A stretch of 64,000 bases of DNA from Thermococcus sp. AM4 (GTDB lineage: Archaea > Methanobacteriota_B > Thermococci > Thermococcales > Thermococcaceae), in assembly GCF_000151205.2 (NCBI RefSeq), contig NC_016051.1:1550001-1614000 (forward strand), read 5' to 3'. Of this stretch, positions 15,492 through 50,530 are shown in pieces; position 1 is the first letter of the stretch; each line of letters begins with the position of its first letter. A program made the translations under genes and the position numbers. The notes under the pieces are model-generated. The model searched no databases, was not told where the DNA came from, and saw nothing but the letters and a program-made list of their open reading frames with translations.

Positions 15492-18400
15492 TCAGGAGGA
15501 GTAGTGCCTCCTCGTCCAGAACTCCTTCTTCCTAAAGGGGTTCCAGTTCTTGAGTGGTCTGTAGTAGCCGATTATTCTGCTCCATATCTCGACGTTCTTG
15601 CTTCCACAGCGCGGGCAGTGGGTGTGCAGGCCCGTCGTTGAGTAGTTGCAGTCGTTGCAGACGGTTATTGCGGGAGTATAGCTCCAGTAGACGAGTTCCG
15701 TTCTCATGAGCCTCTTCGTGAGCTTTGCCAGGGCCCCGGGGTCCGGCTCTTCGCCGAGGAAGATGTGCATCATCACTCCCCCGGTGAAGCTCCTCTGGAT
15801 CTTCTCCTCAACCCTTATCCTGTCGGCCAGCTCCAGAGAGCCGTAGTAGGGCGCCACGCTGGTCGAGTAAATGGGGTTCTCCGGGTCGCTGAGGTACTCT
15901 TTCAGCTCCGGGAACTCGCGGAGGTCCTTTATGGCGAGCTTCGCCGCGGCGCTTTCACCGGGCACCTCTTCCACGTTCCAGGGCGTTCCGGTTTCCTTCA
16001 TCCACTCCCTTGCCTTTACAGTTGCGAACTCCACCATCTCCTTCATCAGCTCCGCCGCTCTCAGCCAGTCCTTCCTCGTCCCCTCCTCCCAGAGCTTCGG
16101 CTCGTTGAGGTAAATCGAGGCCGCTTCCGGAAGGCCGAGGATTCCGACGGTGTTGAAGTGGCTCCCCGGAAACTCCTCAAGGTAGAGGTGAATCATGCTG
16201 TACATGTGCCGGTAGGCGGTGATAAGCCTCACGTAGCGCTCCCTGAACCAGTCCGTTGTTCTTCTCACGACCTCGAGAACCCTCTCGTACTCCTCCCAGA
16301 ACTTATCGTCGTCTCCTCCGGCCTTAAGGGCGAGCTTGGGGAGGTTTACCGTTGTTACGTTCACCGAGCCGGTGACGTCGGGCATCGCCCAGAGTCCGCC
16401 GAAGCGCCCCCTTTCAAGCCTCTCCAGCGCTTCCTCCTCGGCGCTCTTCTCGGAGACACCGAAGGCAAAGGCCATCTCCGTCTTGTCGATGGCAATCCTG
16501 CAACAGTTGTGGGTAACAACTCCAGAGCTGTGGGTGAAGTAGTGAATACCCTCAACCTCCACGTCATAGAAAGTTCCCCCAACTTCTATCTCCTCTGCCT
16601 CTAAGACTGTAACCCACGCAAGGTTTCCACTCACACGGTGCTTTACTGCCTCACTAGGGCGCCCTATCTCCTCTCCCCAGCTACCCGGGAAGTAGACGAC
16701 AACAGAACCATCGCGATTCTCTCTGAAGTAGGCAGAGATTCCCGTTATTGCCGAGAGTGTTAGGACACCCTCGGCAAGCTCCCTGTTCTTTATGTGGAGC
16801 TCCCAAGCACCCTTTCTCCAATAGCCGTCGCTGTGCAAGAGGCCCTTCAGGAAGGCCCTTCTCACCTTTGCCGGAGCACGCCAGATTACTCCGGGAATCC
16901 TCTTCTCATGACTTAACCCGCTTACACCTTCATCATAGAGTGCCCTTGCGAGGTAAGCATCGTATATTCTCACGTAGGTTAAACTCTCCCAACGCGGGTC
17001 CCTCTTTACTTTAGGTTCTCTTCCAAGGACGTTTATCGAGAACTGCACGAGGAATTCCTTCACGTCCTTTTCCGCACTGTTTATGGAGAACTGTATTCCA
17101 CTGAGATAATATCCTTCCCTGTGCTTCTCCTCGCGGGTTCTTCTGGCCATGTCCGAGCTTCTTATAAACGTCCCGTCGCCATAGAACAGCCCCATGAAGT
17201 ATCCAAAGTCCTCGTTGACATCGATTTCACGCCCATCTTCGAGCTGAAGCTTTGCCTTTTCTCCTTCAATCTCAGTCAAAACTACCGGTATGCGATATGC
17301 ATATCCGCCGAGAGAACGCTTGGCTAACTCTTCAGCCTTCATGAGTCTGACACTGTTGTCATACTTGACCAATACGGGAATTGGATGGTCTGGGGATACC
17401 ACAAAGCTTCTCCCATCAGAAAGATGCACTCTGATGGCTTTCCCATACTCCTTTTTCAGGAACCGTTTAATAGGTTTCCATTCAACTTTTTCACCCTTCG
17501 GGTCAACGGCAAGAACCTCCACAGTATCTCTCACTCCATACCATTCTGCTCCATCATCCTCTCTGGACTCCAACTCACCGGCAAAGCGCTCGAAAAGCTC
17601 CTGTATGGGTGCAACTCCAATATCGCCGTTAGCACGGTAAAGAACATTCTCGTTCTCATACAGACACATCGCGTAGCTCGCGTCCGGGTCAACGACGTTC
17701 GTGTTCAGCCAGTAGAAGCTCCCGCGCTTCGACGCCGTCCCGAAGACCTCCTCAAATACCTCGGGGTCGTCCCAGAGCATCTTGGCAGTGACCATCAGCG
17801 TCGGAATCGGGAAGGTGAAGGGCTGGCCGAGCGCGTCCCCCTCGCGGAGAACCTCGGTTAAGGCTATGAAGAACTCTTTGGCTTCCCTCTCGTACTCGCC
17901 GAGCGGTTCGACCTTCTCTCCAGCGTAAACCGCGTGGTCGCCCTCGAGCATCTTTTTGGGAGCGTCGAGCGTTACGGTGAAGTTGGTGAAGGGAGTTTGA
18001 AGGCCTATTCTCGTGGGGTAGTTGAGGTTGTAAACCAGCCTTTGAATCTGCTGTCTGATTTTACGCCTGTCCAGGCTTTCTTTCCTTATGAACGGCCCAG
18101 CGTACCACTCGACCGAGCTCAAAGCCTGGGCACCGCTGAAGTAGTGCTGCATAGTAATGAGGTAGTTCGCTATGTGGTCGACGTAGGTGTCGAAGTGCCT
18201 GGCCGGCCGGGAGACAATCGTAGGCGTCTTGAGACCCTTTTCGAGTAGCCTCGCGGTGCTGTGGCCTGTGCAGTAGGGGATGTAGAGGCTGTAGGGGAGC
18301 TTGTGGATGTAAATGTCTCCAGAGAAGTGCGCCTCCCTGCCCTCCTTTGGGACGAGCGAGATGCTCTCCTTCAGGGATTCCTCCATCACGTAGGCGAAGA

Positions 18401-18497
18401 AGCCGGTCGGACCAGGGTAGCGGTTCGCATTCTCGAGAACGTCCAGACTGCTCCAGCCAGCGTACTCCTGAATGATGTCACGCTTTACCGTCTCCAT
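15492..18497 (-). CDS. nrdD: Anaerobic (class III) ribonucleoside-triphosphate reductase, intein-containing
   Basis: Makes deoxyribonucleotides without oxygen by glycyl-radical chemistry. The precursor is 1001 aa and is interrupted by a 387-aa intein; the spliced protein would be 614 aa. The extein junction is SYAM / CCRIAI, restoring the conserved active-site CC(R) motif. The C-terminus has the zinc site CNDCN...CPRCG and the glycyl radical segment RIIGYYRPL. I start it at the ATG at 18497, with GGTGGTTTGG before it; a GTG at 18506 is in frame. The intein sits exactly at an active-site cysteine, a typical location for homing endonuclease-bearing inteins. Confidence 0.95.
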   Translation of the reverse strand: METVKRDIIQEYAGWSSLDVLENANRYPGPTGFFAYVMEESLKESISLVPKEGREAHFSGDIYIHKLPYSLYIPYCTGHSTARLLEKGLKTPTIVSRPARHFDTYVDHIANYLITMQHYFSGAQALSSVEWYAGPFIRKESLDRRKIRQQIQRLVYNLNYPTRIGLQTPFTNFTVTLDAPKKMLEGDHAVYAGEKVEPLGEYEREAKEFFIALTEVLREGDALGQPFTFPIPTLMVTAKMLWDDPEVFEEVFGTASKRGSFYWLNTNVVDPDASYAMCLYENENVLYRANGDIGVAPIQELFERFAGELESREDDGAEWYGVRDTVEVLAVDPKGEKVEWKPIKRFLKKEYGKAIRVHLSDGRSFVVSPDHPIPVLVKYDNSVRLMKAEELAKRSLGGYAYRIPVVLTEIEGEKAKLQLEDGREIDVNEDFGYFMGLFYGDGTFIRSSDMARRTREEKHREGYYLSGIQFSINSAEKDVKEFLVQFSINVLGREPKVKRDPRWESLTYVRIYDAYLARALYDEGVSGLSHEKRIPGVIWRAPAKVRRAFLKGLLHSDGYWRKGAWELHIKNRELAEGVLTLSAITGISAYFRENRDGSVVVYFPGSWGEEIGRPSEAVKHRVSGNLAWVTVLEAEEIEVGGTFYDVEVEGIHYFTHSSGVVTHNCCRIAIDKTEMAFAFGVSEKSAEEEALERLERGRFGGLWAMPDVTGSVNVTTVNLPKLALKAGGDDDKFWEEYERVLEVVRRTTDWFRERYVRLITAYRHMYSMIHLYLEEFPGSHFNTVGILGLPEAASIYLNEPKLWEEGTRKDWLRAAELMKEMVEFATVKAREWMKETGTPWNVEEVPGESAAAKLAIKDLREFPELKEYLSDPENPIYSTSVAPYYGSLELADRIRVEEKIQRSFTGGVMMHIFLGEEPDPGALAKLTKRLMRTELVYWSYTPAITVCNDCNYSTTGLHTHCPRCGSKNVEIWSRIIGYYRPLKNWNPFRKKEFWTRRHYSS
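16506..17666 (-). mobile_element. Intein in NrdD (LAGLIDADG homing type)
   Basis: 387 residues in frame inside nrdD (residues 278-664). It starts with Cys (CLYENENVLYRANG) and ends in VVTHN, immediately before the +1 Cys of the host protein, so all nucleophiles for normal protein splicing are present. The block B-like region contains SFVVSPDHPIPV. Two LAGLIDADG-type motifs are visible, GYFMGLFYGDGTF and AFLKGLLHSDGYW, so the homing endonuclease looks intact. The DNA would be removed at protein level only. Confidence 0.92.
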
Positions 18498-18796
18498 CCA
18501 AACCACCTGGATAAATTATCCAACTGCGAAAACGGCGATGGAAGATATAACCATTCCCCTTGAACCGTCGGTCGTTTGTGCAACATTAAGGCGAACAATT
18601 GGGCCGCTGGACGAGATTGGAGGATTGTCTATGAACATGTGACTACCACACTGACGACGGGGATAGTGAAGAGAACGAATAGTGACGAATATTGGTCATT
18701 TAGACAGTATCATGTCACAAAATTCGACGTTTAGACACCAGGGTGTTGACCATATCTTTTTAACCCGTTCGGCCAACCGAAGGGCGGTGATGTGAA

Positions 18797-42062: not shown

Positions 42063-42974
42063 TCAAAAGCTCAGGTTCACGTACTTCATTCCCTGGAAGA
42101 CGAGTGCCCCCATTATGGCTAGCATTATGCCGTACTTTATCCCGGCCGAGAACTTGCCCTCTCTGATGACGCCTATTCCAAGCCCCGACACTATAGCCTG
42201 GATTATGACGAAACCGAGCAGTATGTTCAGGACCGTTGGGATCTGGGCCTGGGCCGGTCCCTGGACCATTATTCCCATGAGCTTTCCAACCGTTCCGATG
42301 ATGGCCGGTCCAACGAAGCCGCTGGTGATGATGAAGAACATCATCTGCATTCCCGTTGAGGCCTTTCTCTCCTGCTTTATCCTGAGGATCTCGCGAACGT
42401 CGTTGGCGACGTAGACGAGGACGTCGCTCATAGGAGCGCCTCTCTCAAGGGCCTCGATGATGATCATGAGGGATCTGTATATCACCGGTGACTTCCTGTT
42501 CCTCAGGGCCATTACCCTCAAGGCCTCGACCGTTGAGCGGCCCTTCCTGATCTCACCAACGACCCTCTTGAACTCCTCTGTTAATGCCCCGAACTTTGCA
42601 GTCGTCAGGTCCTCAAGCGCCTCGGAGAACGATATACCAGCCCTCAGAGAGCTGGCCAGATAGAAGAACGCGTCCGGGAGGTTCTTCTCCATCTCCTCAA
42701 GTCTCTTGGAGATCCTCCAGTACGGGTAGGCGAAGGCCATGCCAACGAAAACCGCCACGAGCGTTGCGACGGCGTAGAGTGCATTCGACAGTATCAGGAC
42801 GACGACCGCGAAGATAACGGAGAGGAGGATCGAGATTATCAGGTACTCTATCGCCAGGAACTCTATTCCAGCCGAGTAGATGAATAGCTCGTAGCGTTTT
42901 ACCCACTTCGCCGGCAGGATTCTCTCGAGGATCCTCGTGAGCAGGACTGCAATTCCACCGGATTCCCTCGGCAT
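42063..42974 (-). CDS. TadC/FlaJ-type secretion membrane protein (second copy in operon)
   Basis: 303 aa. A T2SSF-domain protein that anchors a type II/IV secretion ATPase in the membrane. N-terminal cytoplasmic stretch, two helices (FLAIEYLIISILLSVIFAVVVLILSNALYAVATLVAVFVGMAF), the cytoplasmic T2SSF domain (RLEEMEKNLPDAFFYLASSLRAGISFSEALEDLTTAKFGALTEEFKRVVGEIRKGRSTVEALRVMA), then helices near the C-terminus. Last gene of the secretion operon, convergent with the FKBP gene. Confidence 0.87.
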   Translation of the reverse strand: MPRESGGIAVLLTRILERILPAKWVKRYELFIYSAGIEFLAIEYLIISILLSVIFAVVVLILSNALYAVATLVAVFVGMAFAYPYWRISKRLEEMEKNLPDAFFYLASSLRAGISFSEALEDLTTAKFGALTEEFKRVVGEIRKGRSTVEALRVMALRNRKSPVIYRSLMIIIEALERGAPMSDVLVYVANDVREILRIKQERKASTGMQMMFFIITSGFVGPAIIGTVGKLMGIMVQGPAQAQIPTVLNILLGFVIIQAIVSGLGIGVIREGKFSAGIKYGIMLAIMGALVFQGMKYVNLSF

Positions 42975-42979
42975 TCACC

Positions 42980-44056
42980 TCACCTCGGCTCACCGCGCTT
43001 TATCATGGTGACTATTATCAGGGACAGCATCGGGAACGCGAAGAGCAGTATGACCGCCAGTGCCGACGGCGAAAGCGCCAGGTTCCCTCCTCCGCCCTGG
43101 GCGCTGAAGGCGGAACCTGCCAGTATTGCCACTATGAACATCGTTGGCATGACTATTGTCATGAACATGTATATGAAGGCTATACCGTTCACCTTCTGCA
43201 CGTATTCGACCAGCTTCATCCTGTACTCGAAGGCGAAATCTTCCGCCATTTTGTAGAGTATCTCCGCGAGGTTTCCACCGAACTTTATTGCCCTGAGGAT
43301 CTGCTTCACGACCCTGCTCACGCTCTCCGAACCCATCTTCTCCTCGAACCTCTCGAGTGCCTCTTCGAACGATGCACCCGCGCGCATGTCCCTCACTATG
43401 AGCTCGAACTCCTCGGAGGCAACGCCATAATCGGCCTTGGCGACAGAGACGAGTGCCTCAGCTATACCGACTCCCGCGCTCAGGAGGGACGCTATGTGCC
43501 TGAGAACGTAGGGCAGTGCCTTCTCGACCTCCGCTACTCTCCTCCTCCACACTATTCTGGGGTAGTTCCTCATGTAGAGGAAGCCGCCTATGAATCCGAG
43601 CAGTCCGAGCATCATCGACGTGAAAAAGTCCATCTCAAGCAGCAGGCCGAAGGCAAAGGCGAACGCACCCAGGAAAATGGAAGTTACGATCATCAGGGCC
43701 ACGTACTTCTCCTTTGACATCCTGATGTTTGCGCGGTATAGATCGTAGTCGAGGCCCTTTATCGACTTCGTCAGCGACTCGACAGGCCCCTTGAACCTCT
43801 TGAGGAAGGCCTCTGCTAACCTCTCCCCGAAGGAGGTCGTTATCTCCTTTCTCCTCCACTCAAGGATCTCTTCGAGTTCCCTCTCCCTTTCGCTTTCCTT
43901 GCTCTCCTCCGTTTCCTTCTGGATCTCTTTGAGCGCTCTGAGTCTCTCCTGGAGGCTTTTCCGGCGGGGGAGCTTTCTAACCGGCTTCTCCGTGACCTCG
44001 AGCGTCGTGCCGCCGAGCTTTTCAAGGAAATTGAGGAATGCCTCGATGACTCCCAT
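42980..44056 (-). CDS. TadB/FlaJ-type secretion membrane protein (first copy in operon)
   Basis: 358 aa. A long charged N-terminal coil (LQERLRALKEIQKETEESKESERERELEEILEWRRKEITTSF), helices at about residues 120-165, a T2SSF domain (RVAEVEKALPYVLRHIASLLSAGVGIAEALVSVAKADYGVASEEFELIVRDMRAGASFEEALERFEEKMG) and C-terminal helices. Paired with the next gene, it forms a TadB/TadC-like membrane platform for the KlbA-type ATPase encoded directly upstream. Confidence 0.87.
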   Translation of the reverse strand: MGVIEAFLNFLEKLGGTTLEVTEKPVRKLPRRKSLQERLRALKEIQKETEESKESERERELEEILEWRRKEITTSFGERLAEAFLKRFKGPVESLTKSIKGLDYDLYRANIRMSKEKYVALMIVTSIFLGAFAFAFGLLLEMDFFTSMMLGLLGFIGGFLYMRNYPRIVWRRRVAEVEKALPYVLRHIASLLSAGVGIAEALVSVAKADYGVASEEFELIVRDMRAGASFEEALERFEEKMGSESVSRVVKQILRAIKFGGNLAEILYKMAEDFAFEYRMKLVEYVQKVNGIAFIYMFMTIVMPTMFIVAILAGSAFSAQGGGGNLALSPSALAVILLFAFPMLSLIIVTMIKRGEPR

Positions 44057-44065
44057 ACGAACACC

Positions 44066-47000
44066 TCACGCTATGTTCCTGATCTGCTCCTGTATCTGGG
44101 CCGAGCTATCCCTCTCGATCTTCTCTATGAGGGCGTCTTCATCGATGTAGAACATCTTGATGTAGTGGCCGACCTCTTCTATGCTCCTGATGCCCTTCTC
44201 CATCATCCACTCGAGGATTATCTTCCTCTTCTCCCTCTCCATCTCCAGCTCGCTTATGCTCATTCCCGTGTGCCTCGCGAGTTCGTTTATGACCCTGCTC
44301 GGAACTTCCGTTGGCTGGAGCTCGTCCTTTGCCGGATCGTACTTGTAGAGCTTGTTGAGCTGTATGCTCTCGCCCTCGATTCCCGAGATTTCCGCTATCT
44401 CCGTGACCCTCCTGACGGTTCCCTTCTTCCTGCTGTTGAACCTGACCTGCATCAGGATTATGTCGAGGGCAGGGATCATTATCCTTGGAACGTTCATCGG
44501 CGGGCTTTCAAGCCTCACTATCGTCTCACGGGCGCTGTTGGAGTGTATGGTGCCCATACAGTTCGACACAAGGATCCCGTTGGCGACGTAGTTGTGGTCC
44601 TCCTCAACGGTCAGGTCGTAGAGGTACTCTATGCCCAGCTCCTCCGGCTCGACCTCCTCGACGCTAACGACCTCGTCCCAGTAGACGTCTCCCTCCGCTA
44701 TTAGCTCAAGCCTCTTCGCCTGAACCCATGCTTCTTTATCTCTGAGATCGCTCGCAACCTGTTGGAGGGCGAGCGCTATGCCCCTGAGCGCGGAGCGCCT
44801 GATTTCCTTCATCCTTCCCTTCTCAACGTGCCTTATGAGGCTCTCCGATACCTTCTCGCCGGCATAGCTTGAGGCGAGCCTCGAAAGCTCCGAAACCGTG
44901 AGGTTGAGCCTTCTCCTGAGGGGTTCGAGCATCGCCGGCGAAATCGGTACGCGGTCGGCCCTCTTTCCACGATAGGAGCGGTACTTTCTGATGAGCTCCT
45001 CAAGCTTCTCCCTCTTCCGCGAGTGCCTGAGCGGTATCGAGCGGTGGAATCTAATTAAGTCCTCAACACCCCTCACCGTGACCCTGAATATCACGCCCTC
45101 CTTGTAACCCCTGTTCTTCACGCGGGAGACGGTGCTTATTATTCCAAGCCTCTGGAGGGCATACCAGACCTTCCTCGCGAGGTTCTCGCTCCTCGTCGTT
45201 AGGATAACAGCAGGGCCGTTTTCGTCTATGTAGGCATCGGCATCGAAGAGGCCGGCTATGAAGTGCCTCAATAGATCATCGTTCGAGAGAACCAGATCTG
45301 GAACGTCGAGGCTCTCCTTGCGCCCTTTGGGTATTCCGAAGGCCCTGTGGAGGAACTCGGCGAAGGGCCTTGAGCCGTAGGTTACCACCGTGTAGGCAGA
45401 TTCGCGCTTTACCTGCGGCTCGCTCTCGGGAAGGAACTCCGAGATTGCAGAGGTGAATGCCTTCATGTAGGATTCGTCGTCGAAAGTGGCCGAGATGTAG
45501 TAGCCGTTTGATGAAATGTAACCGTCTCCAAGGAGGACTCCAACGGCGTAGGAAAGGCTCTCATTCACCTCGCGGACGAGCTTCACGGGTTTCGAGTTGA
45601 TTGAGAGTAGATACTGTGCCATCTCGGGAGGAATGCCGTCGTTCGGAACCTTTACGAGGCCGTTTCCGTTGGGGACGAGGTAGTAGTCGCTTATCCCCGC
45701 GTAAACCTCGGGGTTGATGATTGCCCTCCTCTGGGGCGGCCTTGGGGGCTTCCTCATCACGGCCACTCTGTCACCGGGCTTGAGTTTCTCCGCTTCCTTC
45801 CTCACCACGTCGCCGTCGGAGAACACGAAGAACGGGTGGGTCTTTGTGAGTATCACCTCGTTGCCCGTCCTCGTCCTCACGCGGATGAGCTTCTCTCCCT
45901 CTCTGACCTTCCTTCTCCAGACCCTCGAAACGACGTGCTTTCCTGCCTTGAGGTCCGGGCCAACGCTCACGACCTCGAACCTGTCTTCCTCATCGAGAAC
46001 CACGTACTCCAGATCCCTGTAGGTTTCAATTCTGTCGGAGTATTTCCTAAATAGCTCCTCGAGCAGGTCGCCGATGAGAACGAAGCGGCCGTCCGAGAGC
46101 TGGATGACCGAGAAGTCGTAGAGGGCGCCATTATGACCCGTGTTCATGGCTGTGAACATCGTCCTGGCCTCTGGGCCACGGACCTCACCGACGATGATTC
46201 TATCGGGACGCATACGGAGGGTGTTCTTGACGAGGTCGTCCATCGTGACCTCTCCCTTGCCCTCGATGTTCGGCGGCCTGGTTTCGAGCCTGACCCAGTG
46301 CTCGACGGGCAGCTGAAGCTCGGCCGTGTCCTCGATGCTGATAACGCGCTCGCTGGGCGGGATGAACATCGCCAGTGCGTTCAGGGTAGTCGTCTTACCG
46401 GAACCGGTTCCACCGGCCACGAGTATGTTGGCCGGCTTCACCCCCAACCCATCAACGAGGAGCCACAGGAAGGCTGCAACGTCGCTGTTCATGGTTCCAT
46501 ACTTTATGAGGTCGATTATCGTTAGCGGGTCCTTCTTGAACTTACGGATAGTTATCGTCGGACCGTCGAGGCTTATAGGAGGTATCGTGGCGTTAACACG
46601 GCTTCCATCGGGGAGACGGGCGTCCAAAAGCGGGTTCTGCTGGTCTATCCTCCTGCCCACTTCCCTGGCTATCCTCTCGATGATGTTGAGTATGTCCCTC
46701 TCCTCCTTGAACACTATGTTGGTTTTGCACATGTAGAAACGCCTGTGCCACACGTAGACCGGCTTGTTGGTTCCGATGACCATGATCTCCTCAAGGTTGT
46801 CGTCCCTCACGAGGGGATCGAGAAGGCCGTAGCCGAGCATGCTCTGCACTATGAGCTCCGCCAGAACCTCTATTCTTCCCTCGGAGAAGTTTGGGGCCGC
46901 CTCTTTGAGCATTCTCTTGACTTCCCTGAGGAATATCTTCCTCCTCTCCTCGTAGTTCGGGATCAGAGTGGGATCGATCTGGATCTCCGTTATCGCCCGC

Positions 47001-47650
47001 TCTCTGACCTGTTTCAGGAGGTTCTCTTCATCCTTCGAGAGCTTTGGTAGTCTTATCTCGTATATCGGCACGGGCTCTCCCTTGACTTTCAATATTCTGA
47101 CGTTTCCGTACGCGTCCAGAACTTTTGCCCTGCCCCCGTAGGACAGCTCTTCCGTTTTGGTTTCTCCTATTATGCTCTGAAGCCCGAGGGAGGGCTTTGG
47201 CTTGGGGAGAGGCAGTGGCAGGGGCTGTGACCTGGCCGGGGCCTTGGGTTTGCTTGGGGCCGTCCCCGTGCTTCCTCCGAGGATCTGGCCGAGGAGATCA
47301 ACTCCGGTGGGCGTTTCGGGCTTTTTCTGCCTCTCGCTTGGCTTCTCCTTTCCCTCCTTTCCCCCGAGGATTGCGCTCAGCGATGGAGCCGGTGATTCTT
47401 CCTTGGGCTTCTCCGCTGACTTGAGGATCTCTTCAAGGGGATTGCCCGCTGGAACCGGGGGTTTTTTTGGTTCTTCCTTCTTTGAGCCGCCAAGGATTTC
47501 CTCGAGCGGGGAGCCCTCTGAGATGAAAGGTAATGGGGGCTTCTTCTCCTCCTTCTTCTCACCCAGTACGTTTGCGAGGGGATCGCTCTTGCCCCCGAGT
47601 ATCTCATCTATCCATGAACCGGAGAGCTCCTTCTTCTTTTTCTTTTCCAC
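44066..47650 (-). CDS. Type II/IV secretion ATPase (KlbA/TadA-like), intein-containing
   Basis: A secretion motor of the VirB11/TadA/GspE family. Precursor 1194 aa with a 522-aa intein; spliced product 672 aa. Walker [13 protein letters not shown] (about residues 413-421), Walker B-region [15 protein letters not shown], and the conserved [19 protein letters not shown] and [13 protein letters not shown]. The first 140 residues are low-complexity, rich in K, P and E, with a repeated ILGG-type motif. Start at GTG 47650 is chosen (GGTGAG with six bases spacing); a TTG at 47683 would overlap the neighbour and lacks a ribosome binding site. The intein position, just before CMGTIHSN, is that of the Methanocaldococcus and Pyrococcus KlbA inteins. 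Confidence 0.93.
44561..46126 (-). mobile_element. KlbA-type intein with alanine at position 1
   Basis: 522 residues (509-1030 of the precursor). It begins NTGHNG / [13 protein letters not shown] with Ala instead of Cys or Ser, and ends [12 protein letters not shown] before the +1 Cys. This Ala1 form is the known property of KlbA inteins, which splice by direct attack of Cys+1 on the first peptide bond. The penultimate residue is Ser rather than His. Two endonuclease motifs are present, [13 protein letters not shown] and [14 protein letters not shown], so a LAGLIDADG-type homing endonuclease is likely intact. The tail contains the splicing block [16 protein letters not shown]. Confidence 0.92.
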
Positions 47651-47657
47651 CACACTC

Positions 47658-48689
47658 TCACCCACGGTAATTATTCCATTCAACGCGGTAGCTTATTTCA
47701 AGGGTGTTCACGTCTTTACCCATGTACACGACCCATATCGGGAAGTCGAGGGGCTTGACGGCCGGTGCGTGGATCTCGGGCTTTTTGATCTTCGTTCCCG
47801 AGATGAGGCTGTCGGTGAGCTTGAAGAGCCCGTTGGAGGAGTTTCTGGGTTTATTCTGGGGGGTCTTGGGCGTGGTGAATCCCCTGTATCCGAGTATGAA
47901 GTTCAGGTAGTCGCTGTATTTCATGGAGTACGGGGGCTGGTAATCGGTCATCGTCGCGTTGTGGAATATCACCGGCTGGGACACCGCGAAGAACAGCGGG
48001 AACTCGACGTTCGATGTACTGTTGTCGTCAGTGCTGTCCGGGACGTCGGTGAGCTTGAATTTAACGATTCCCTCGTATTTGAGCATCTTGATGTAGCCGT
48101 CCATCGAGGGCAGAACCTCGTTGAACCTTATGACCAGCGGGTAGTTCAGGAGCTGGGGGTAAGCCACTCCGCAGATCGGATAGTTGAGGTTCTCGTAGGT
48201 GTGGATCTTTCCACCCGTGAAGGTTCCGTTCTCATAGTTCAGGATGTACAGTCCCACGTCTGTCGGGCAGGAGTCCTTGTAGTCCTTGAGCTTGATGTAG
48301 TATTTGTGGGCCTCCGTGATCGAGAACTGGACCTTAACTGTTTCGTAGGGGTAGATCCAGAACCCGACGCGGTAGTTGAGGGTGTTGTTGAGCGTCTCCG
48401 GGGAGAGCTGGTACACCATCTCCCCCCTCGTCTCGTTGAAGGTCCCGACGAGCCATTCCCCGTTGTTCTGTCTGTAAACTTTGAAGTCGTACAGGGGGTT
48501 GGCCACTATGAACTTGGGATAGGGGGCCAGATTGATGAGCGTGACGTTTACGTACATTATCAGCTGCCCGCTCAGGCCGATGTTGTTGTAGTTCTCCCCC
48601 GGAAGGTTGTAGGTTTCACTCTCGGCGAGCGCGGGAAGGGACAAGAACAACAATGAAAGGGCCAGGAGGGGAAGGAGCTTGGCTTTCAT
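47658..48689 (-). CDS. Exported protein of the secretion operon
   Basis: 343 aa. Signal peptide [25 protein letters not shown] with a likely cut after ALA. The remainder is beta-rich, with many Asn and Tyr ([69 protein letters not shown]) and ends in [23 protein letters not shown]. No family recognised. The ATG at 48689 follows GGGGTGGGATCG. It lies between the DUF515 gene and the ATPase, so it may be an outside component of the same secretion or pilus-like machine. Confidence 0.75.
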
Positions 48690-48702: not shown

Positions 48703-50148
48703 TCAGCTCTTCTCGACGAGCTCGCCGATGTACACCGTGTTGATGTGGCTGAGCACGTCCGGAACGTAAACCGAGGGCACCTCGACGATCACGAGGAACG
48801 GAACTCCGTTCGGCACGTTCTGGAGCTGGAGCCTCTTCTCGAGGGCGAGTAAGTTGTCCCCGTAGTTTTCAAGCTGCTTGATGGCCTCCTCCGAACCCTG
48901 TATCTTGCCCGAGGAGATCGCCCTCATTATCTCGCCGAGGTTGACCGAGTAGTAGTACGAGGCCGAGGATGACTCGGAGTAGCTCTCGCTCGAGCTGGAG
49001 GAGCTGGAGGAGCTTCCGCCCGTTGAGACCGTTGTGTCGCCGGCGCTCGCGGAGTTCTGGCTGCTTGAGGAACTCTGGCTGTTGGAGTTGGAGTTGCTCG
49101 AGGAGCTGCTTCCCTGCTGCTCGTTCAGGTTTATTATGCCTGCGTCCGCCGGGAGGAGGACGGAATCAACGTAGCCGAGGTCCGCTATCTGAAGGTACTG
49201 CCTGTTGGTGGCGTTCTGGGCGAATATCATTATCTTTGCGCCCGGCTCGATGAATCCCCCAACAACCCTGTCCCTGGTGAGGAGGAGGGCTATCTTAACG
49301 AACTGGACCTCCTTGACGCTGTACTGCATCAGAACGGTGTAATCCTGGATCCCGGAGAGGATGGCCTTCGCCTGTTCCTTGGTGTATATCTTCTTGTGGC
49401 CGTTGAACTCGAGAACCACGTAGTCGCCTTTGATTGAGTCAACCTTGTAGGTGTAGTACTCGCGCCAGAGCTGGAGCAGGTAGGGGGTTGGGTCCGTCGA
49501 GTTGACGACGTCTATTGAGGTGGCGTTGTCGATCCTGGCAAGTAGTTCGTTCTCTATCTGAAGGGCGTGGGCCCTTATCTGGCTCGGCAGCGGCTGGGCA
49601 AGCAGGGGTTCAAACAGGAGTTTTATCTCAGTCTTCTTCTGCTCCTTGGCTTCGTTCAGGCGTTTGAGCTCCTCCTGTCTCTTTTTCTCTTCAAGCTCCG
49701 CTTTGTATTTGTTGTAGACCTGGAGGTAGGCGCTCTTTATATCGATGGAGTTGAGCTCTTCAACGCTTTTCGCCGCCTCTATCTTCGCTTTGAGCTCTCT
49801 GTACGTGGCCTGCCCGTAGCTGGTCTTCAGTATGTCCCCTTTGAAGTACGAATTCAGTTCGGCCAGCTTCCTCTGCTTTGCGTCTCTCAACTCTTTCGCC
49901 TTCTGACTTGAATACCACGAGTAAGCAGCGAACGAGACTATCAGGATCAGGATTATCAGGATTGAGGCACCGATGAGGATTCTCCTCTTCTTCTCCCTCT
50001 CCCTAATGTTGCTCAGGCGCCTTATCCTGCGGGGAGGTTTTGGTTTTGGGGAGGGCTTTGAAACGGGCGTGGGAGGCGTCTCGGGCTCGGCACTCGCCTT
50101 ACCCAGCTCTCTTAACCTTCTAATCTTGGCTTCTATATCCTCGGCCAC
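48703..50148 (-). CDS. DUF515-like membrane-anchored protein, first gene of the secretion operon
   Basis: 481 aa. The N-terminus is cytoplasmic and Pro/Lys-rich (PETPPTPVSKPSPKPKPPRRIRR), then one helix (ILIGASILIILILIVSFAAYSWY), then a long outside coiled coil (KYKAELEEKKRQEELKRLNEAKEQKKTEIKLLFEPLL), a beta-rich domain (GFIEPGAKIMIFAQNATNRQYLQIADLGYVDSVLLP), a serine-rich tract of about 80 residues (nearly all S, with N, Q, T, G) and a final domain (NGVPFLVIVEVPSVYVPDVLSHINTVYIGELVEKS). I associate it with archaeal DUF515 by memory. GTG at 50148 follows GGTGGTGTTCACA. The coil and stalk suggest a spacer between membrane and cell surface. Confidence 0.72.
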   Translation of the reverse strand: MAEDIEAKIRRLRELGKASAEPETPPTPVSKPSPKPKPPRRIRRLSNIREREKKRRILIGASILIILILIVSFAAYSWYSSQKAKELRDAKQRKLAELNSYFKGDILKTSYGQATYRELKAKIEAAKSVEELNSIDIKSAYLQVYNKYKAELEEKKRQEELKRLNEAKEQKKTEIKLLFEPLLAQPLPSQIRAHALQIENELLARIDNATSIDVVNSTDPTPYLLQLWREYYTYKVDSIKGDYVVLEFNGHKKIYTKEQAKAILSGIQDYTVLMQYSVKEVQFVKIALLLTRDRVVGGFIEPGAKIMIFAQNATNRQYLQIADLGYVDSVLLPADAGIINLNEQQGSSSSSNSNSNSQSSSSSQNSASAGDTTVSTGGSSSSSSSSSESYSESSSASYYYSVNLGEIMRAISSGKIQGSEEAIKQLENYGDNLLALEKRLQLQNVPNGVPFLVIVEVPSVYVPDVLSHINTVYIGELVEKS

Positions 50149-50530
50149 TGTGAACACCACCATAAGGGTTATCGTAATACCCTCTTGTTAAGTCAGTTAG
50201 TTTTTTGAACTCCAAGCTTTATTTAGGTTTCGGTGGGAGGGATGGAGCGATTGGAGGCCCGTGTGGTGGAAATAAGGGGCAGATGTCCCGTGTTTAAGCC
50301 AGGGGACAGGATAGTAATCGAGGGGCCCAAAGTAAAGCTCGACGAGACCGATGCAATCTGCACCCACGCCTTCGCATCACTGCTCCCCTACATCGTGGCC
50401 CTGCGAAAGGGTATTAAACCGAGCGAGCTAGGCCTCGGAAGGGGAGAGAAAGCCTACGTCCAGTGCCTCGACCCGGGACCGCCCTACACGGACGGTGGAA
50501 CTGTAATCTTCGAGATAACGGTGGTTAGAG

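Follow-up and report, generated by a model that had tools for sequence, protein, structure and literature searches.

The klbA gene of Thermococcus sp. AM4 very probably carries a class 2 intein that houses both a LAGLIDADG homing endonuclease and a helix-turn-helix (HTH) domain. Inserted at NTGHxG|CMGTIH, it would splice through attack by Cys+1 and spread by homing with co-conversion. The intein is one more member of its class: the mechanism class is the one that an initial annotation of this DNA had proposed, and the novelty claims made there are not upheld. What the present analysis adds to that annotation is the HTH accessory domain, the evidence for homing and a linked extein codon at position -2. 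The host gene lies at 44066..47683 on the minus strand of the window, by which we mean the entire stretch of 64,000 nucleotides analysed (all window features given below are on this strand), and encodes a KlbA-type type II/IV secretion ATPase interrupted by the intein. From the TTG start as listed, the frame is open across 1205 codons and specifies a 1205-aa precursor. Its ATPase part matches Pfam T2SSE at 4.2e-45 and PilB3_C weakly, and the best NCBIfam matches of the product, all below cut-off, are archaellum/TadA ATPases. The intein itself (44561..46126; precursor residues 520-1041) is 522 aa long, runs from Ala1 to Ser521-Asn522 in an alignment with 40 relatives, and matches Pfam Intein_splicing at 8.6e-25 and LAGLIDADG_3 at 4.6e-16, a match that is not attributable to chance. 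It is followed by the TGT codon of Cys+1 (44558..44560), the attacking nucleophile of class 2 as predicted by homology, and preceded by the extein codon for Gly(-1) (46127..46129), which separates codon -2 from the intein.

We searched 94 Thermococcales genomes and read the klbA region for nearly all of them; one of the 94, G081, gave no strong klbA match. A single KlbA insertion site is shared by 44 empty alleles and 46 fully read intein alleles. The empty alleles run uninterrupted through NTGHDG|CM(G/S)T(I/L/V)H, joining exactly at Gly|Cys, and in 46/46 fully read intein alleles Ala1, the Ser-Asn end and Cys+1 fall at the same place. The coordinates originally given for a 522-aa intein are thus exact, since empty alleles of relatives join at these very junctions, and the three terminal features described for the window copy recur in every fully read allele. 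No ordinary Cys or Ser at a better junction, a possibility raised in the initial annotation, emerged from the alignment, because the 44 empty alleles fix Gly|Cys and the 46 intein alleles agree. Two further alleles, L049 (genome G084) and L051 (G015), have frameshifts within the intein; if these are not sequencing errors, the C-extein would be lost from the product. One allele (L052/L103) is fragmentary.

Every class 2 intein is a KlbA orthologue with Ala1 and Ser at position G:6 (PMC4031507), and the Mja KlbA intein is a typical example carrying both residues (PMC7765530). In line with this definition, the 41 full-length and 5 shorter alleles display the complete signature of Ala1 (41/41 and 5/5, respectively), Thr and His in block B, Asp at F:4, the Ser-Asn end (Ser at G:6, as the class definition requires) and Cys+1. 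In the full-length alignment (n=41), Thr94 (B:7) and His97 (B:10) of the block B motif TKTH (45836..45847) and Asp504 (F:4) are invariant. On the shared site and the class definition, the window copy is indeed of the KlbA type, sits where KlbA inteins are known to insert, and has Ala1 and Cys+1. The features that had been called non-canonical, the Ser-Asn C-terminus among them, are in fact what defines the class. Neither does its full length make it exceptional in class 2, contrary to what had been suggested: 41/46 fully read Thermococcales alleles are 499-531 aa long (the others 433, 322, 236, 207 and 196 aa), so that full length is the norm in this order and the window copy is not a special subject.

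The type member of the class, the Mja KlbA mini-intein (MJ0781, PDB 2jmz/2jnq), is homologous to the window intein (4.7e-13) and to the splicing part of the shorter intein L056 (3.1e-54). It shares with the window intein the NTGHxG| site, Ala1, T..H of block B, Asp at F:4 and Ser at G:6, and its construct begins NTGHDG|ALAYDEP. Unlike the window copy, however, it is without endonuclease or HTH domain, has Asp at -2 and has a different loop before VSN; this spacing before the last block, with extra residues in the mini-intein, is a counter-point to the comparison. The catalytic positions and the match to Mja KlbA nonetheless point to the class 2 route without a first acyl shift that had been proposed for the window intein. 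By analogy with Mja KlbA, the peptide bond between Gly(-1) and Ala1 would most likely be attacked directly by Cys+1, Asn522 would cyclise although no His precedes it, and ligation of the exteins would follow; from the same analogy and the conserved residues, we infer direct Cys+1 attack for the full-length copies of Thermococcales. These other full-length inteins, such as the 520-aa copy of G006, have the same site, signature and three domains as the window intein, and those with an intact endonuclease are 65-97% identical to it. G006 shows no essential difference, and keeps Asp(-2). The Pho and Pfu KlbA inteins are about 520 aa long (InBase).

As predicted from the sequence and a structure model, the domains follow one another as HINT-N, LAGLIDADG, HTH and HINT-C. 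The N-terminal part of the HINT splicing domain covers intein residues 1-126 (45749..46126), as indicated by a phmmer match to Mja KlbA 2jmz and by the model, and the C-terminal part, which holds blocks F and G (44561..44704), is recognised by profile matches including intein_Cterm. The LAGLIDADG homing endonuclease domain, at residues about 127-391 (44954..45748), is delimited by Pfam LAGLIDADG_3, purifying selection and AlphaFold2/Foldseek results. Both endonuclease motifs reported for the window intein are present (the first at 45509..45550, the second at 45224..45265), intact and with their catalytic Asp. The HTH accessory domain, at residues about 392-474 (44705..44953), matches HTH_31 weakly in the window copy; we place it between LAGLIDADG and HINT-C because the homologous segment of the 236-aa intein L056 matches HTH_3 at 2.6e-11, and because of the AlphaFold2 model (pLDDT 90.4, pTM 0.85), in which the accessory region is helical, and its top Foldseek matches in the PDB, the TliVMA intein 7qss and PI-TkoII 2cw7, whose accessory domains are helix-turn-helix-like (PMC8966425). 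TliVMA and PI-TkoII share HINT, LAGLIDADG and an HTH-like accessory domain with the window intein, but reside in other host genes and at other sites, and the 7qss structure is that of a C1A mutant, i.e. of a class 1 intein with a natural Cys1. In two class 2 inteins, L056 and the 322-aa L053, the LAGLIDADG part is gone but the HTH segment remains.

A rival reading takes the window intein for an inactive relic, its splicing lost along with KlbA function in the strain or its endonuclease dead. Some relatives have indeed decayed, L049 and L051 through frameshifts in the intein and L029, L035 and L050 through damaged endonuclease motifs or a deletion. The window copy, however, agrees with the other 40 full-length alleles at every alignment column in which they are all alike, its 1205-codon frame is open, its catalytic Asp residues are intact, and pairs that include it give dN/dS of 0.03-0.07 for the endonuclease, which near the window copy is under strong purifying selection; we consider a relic very unlikely. 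Splicing by the class 1 or class 3 route via another nucleophile or junction is more improbable still: class 3 inteins likewise lack Cys1/Ser1 (PMC7664689) and Ala1 alone cannot tell class 2 from class 3, but all 41 full-length alleles have Asp rather than Cys at F:4, so that the class 3 nucleophile is absent and that class (WCT motif, Cys at F:4) is ruled out by sequence, and the empty alleles place the junction at Gly|Cys.

Comparison of inteins with their exteins further shows that the KlbA intein moves between species, with homing as its apparent history. Between the window and its closest relative, L014, HINT-N and the endonuclease give a dS of 0.33-0.34 and the exteins one of 1.02; the window intein groups with L010, L013 and L014 and its extein with L010 and L011; and the extein tree requires at least 21 switches between presence and absence of the intein. 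The endonuclease, judged active from the selection on it, would most likely cut intein-free klbA alleles, and recombination would copy the intein in, and with it some 10-24 bp of host DNA from the upstream side, the Asn(-2) codon among them. Of the upstream differences in five pairs of closely related intein-containing and empty alleles, 19/165 lie within the final 24 bp (p 6e-8, with the G-to-A change of codon -2 left out), and the downstream difference lists from the same comparison show no such crowding, which argues for a short, one-sided upstream co-conversion tract. The upstream clustering could partly reflect a locally variable stretch; over the last 12 bp the values are 0.154 for empty-empty pairs vs 0.212 for mixed pairs. 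The haloarchaeal MCM-d intein, in which a flanking residue is co-converted at homing, offers a precedent (PMC10643990).

This analysis also revealed, as a by-product that may be new, an apparent link between extein codon -2 (46130..46132) and endonuclease integrity. The codon is AAT (Asn) in the window and GAY (Asp) in 44/44 empty alleles. Asn-Gly, the pair that Asn(-2) forms with Gly(-1), is prone to deamidation in the heat. Asn(-2) is found in 37/41 full-length alleles, encoded by AAT each time and always with both catalytic Asp residues kept, and thus in 37/38 counted alleles with intact endonuclease motifs. The four full-length alleles with Asp(-2) are L029 (GNG), L035 (a deletion), L050 (GSG and DGN) and, as the exception with intact motifs, L044; all five shorter inteins have Asp(-2). 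The frame-shifted L049 and L051, which read GHNG and have intact motifs, were excluded from these counts. A Fisher test gives 3e-8 with relatedness ignored, a value that represents a handful of events, since the HINT tree holds only 5 Asn/Asp steps and 4 steps of endonuclease loss. In addition, on the intein tree, which takes one genome per species, 0 changes are counted for the wobble base of AAT and 1 for that of the CAT before it, where 90 comparable sites have a mode of 4-5; in this 90-site distribution 5/4005 pairs of sites sum to <=1 change, and the p of about 0.001 that follows should serve only as a guide, because the location was noticed after the fact. An alternative-frame ORF from the ATG inside AATGG was rejected, as it is 8-84 aa long and not conserved.

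We give roughly an even chance to pure hitch-hiking, in which the AAT of an early donor would be co-converted at each homing and would revert to Asp after endonuclease death, Asp being preferred by the host ATPase. The short upstream tract covers codon -2, every empty allele has Asp there, the four full-length Asp(-2) alleles carry reversion-like CATGAT codons, and L044, with Asp and intact motifs, is nested in the intein tree among the inteins of another genus. What fits hitch-hiking less well is the constancy of the AAT and CAT wobble bases, among the lowest of the 90 sites, when the wobble base of Gly(-1), which lies between those codons and the intein, has changed 14 times, as is ordinary for glycine codons. 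A role of Asn(-2) in helping full-length class 2 precursors to splice is a possible but less probable explanation: it would agree with Asn(-2) in 37/41 full-length and 0/5 shorter alleles, but the full-length Asp(-2) alleles (L029, L035, L044 and L050) exist, and a conserved wobble base is not explicable by a splicing role. Finally, it seems unlikely that, where the endonuclease works, the upstream CAT-AAT functions as a DNA element carried by the intein and reverts to the host-preferred Asp codon once the endonuclease is lost; such an element might be, for instance, a half-site variant that the endonuclease does not cut, or one that it binds for control.

The full-length, decayed, mini and empty alleles at this one site form a natural series for the coexistence of class 2 splicing with a nested endonuclease, and within this set the state of a host codon tracks the integrity of the endonuclease. 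If codon -2 were functional, inteins would carry a piece of host sequence as part of the element, and we regard this linked codon as the only part worth following.

KlbA-like ATPases were also found in other classes of the phylum, where the matches are uninterrupted. A genome scan with Thermococcales-derived patterns, which miss Mja KlbA, saw no class 2 intein outside Thermococcales among L105, L119, L121-L123, L126 and L132, which are of the Cys1/His-Asn type where their ends are visible (L132 is an N-terminal end only), and is weak evidence that class 2 inteins may be absent there. In the window, klbA is flanked (42063-44056 and 48703-50163, both minus) by genes for two T2SSF membrane proteins and a DUF515 protein, a neighbourhood that appears to resemble a type IV pilus-like gene cluster. 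L058 (G093:C29, 363-3653) is a single open frame of 1097 aa with two tandem KlbA-like ATPase copies and no intein. An ordinary class 1 intein with LAGLIDADG motifs, with junctions AM|CLYENE...VVTHN|CC, is present in the NrdD (anaerobic ribonucleotide reductase) gene of the window (15492-18506, minus). The organism is intein-rich, as the intein splicing profile has 18 matches in the whole genome (G000), several of them inside one gene.
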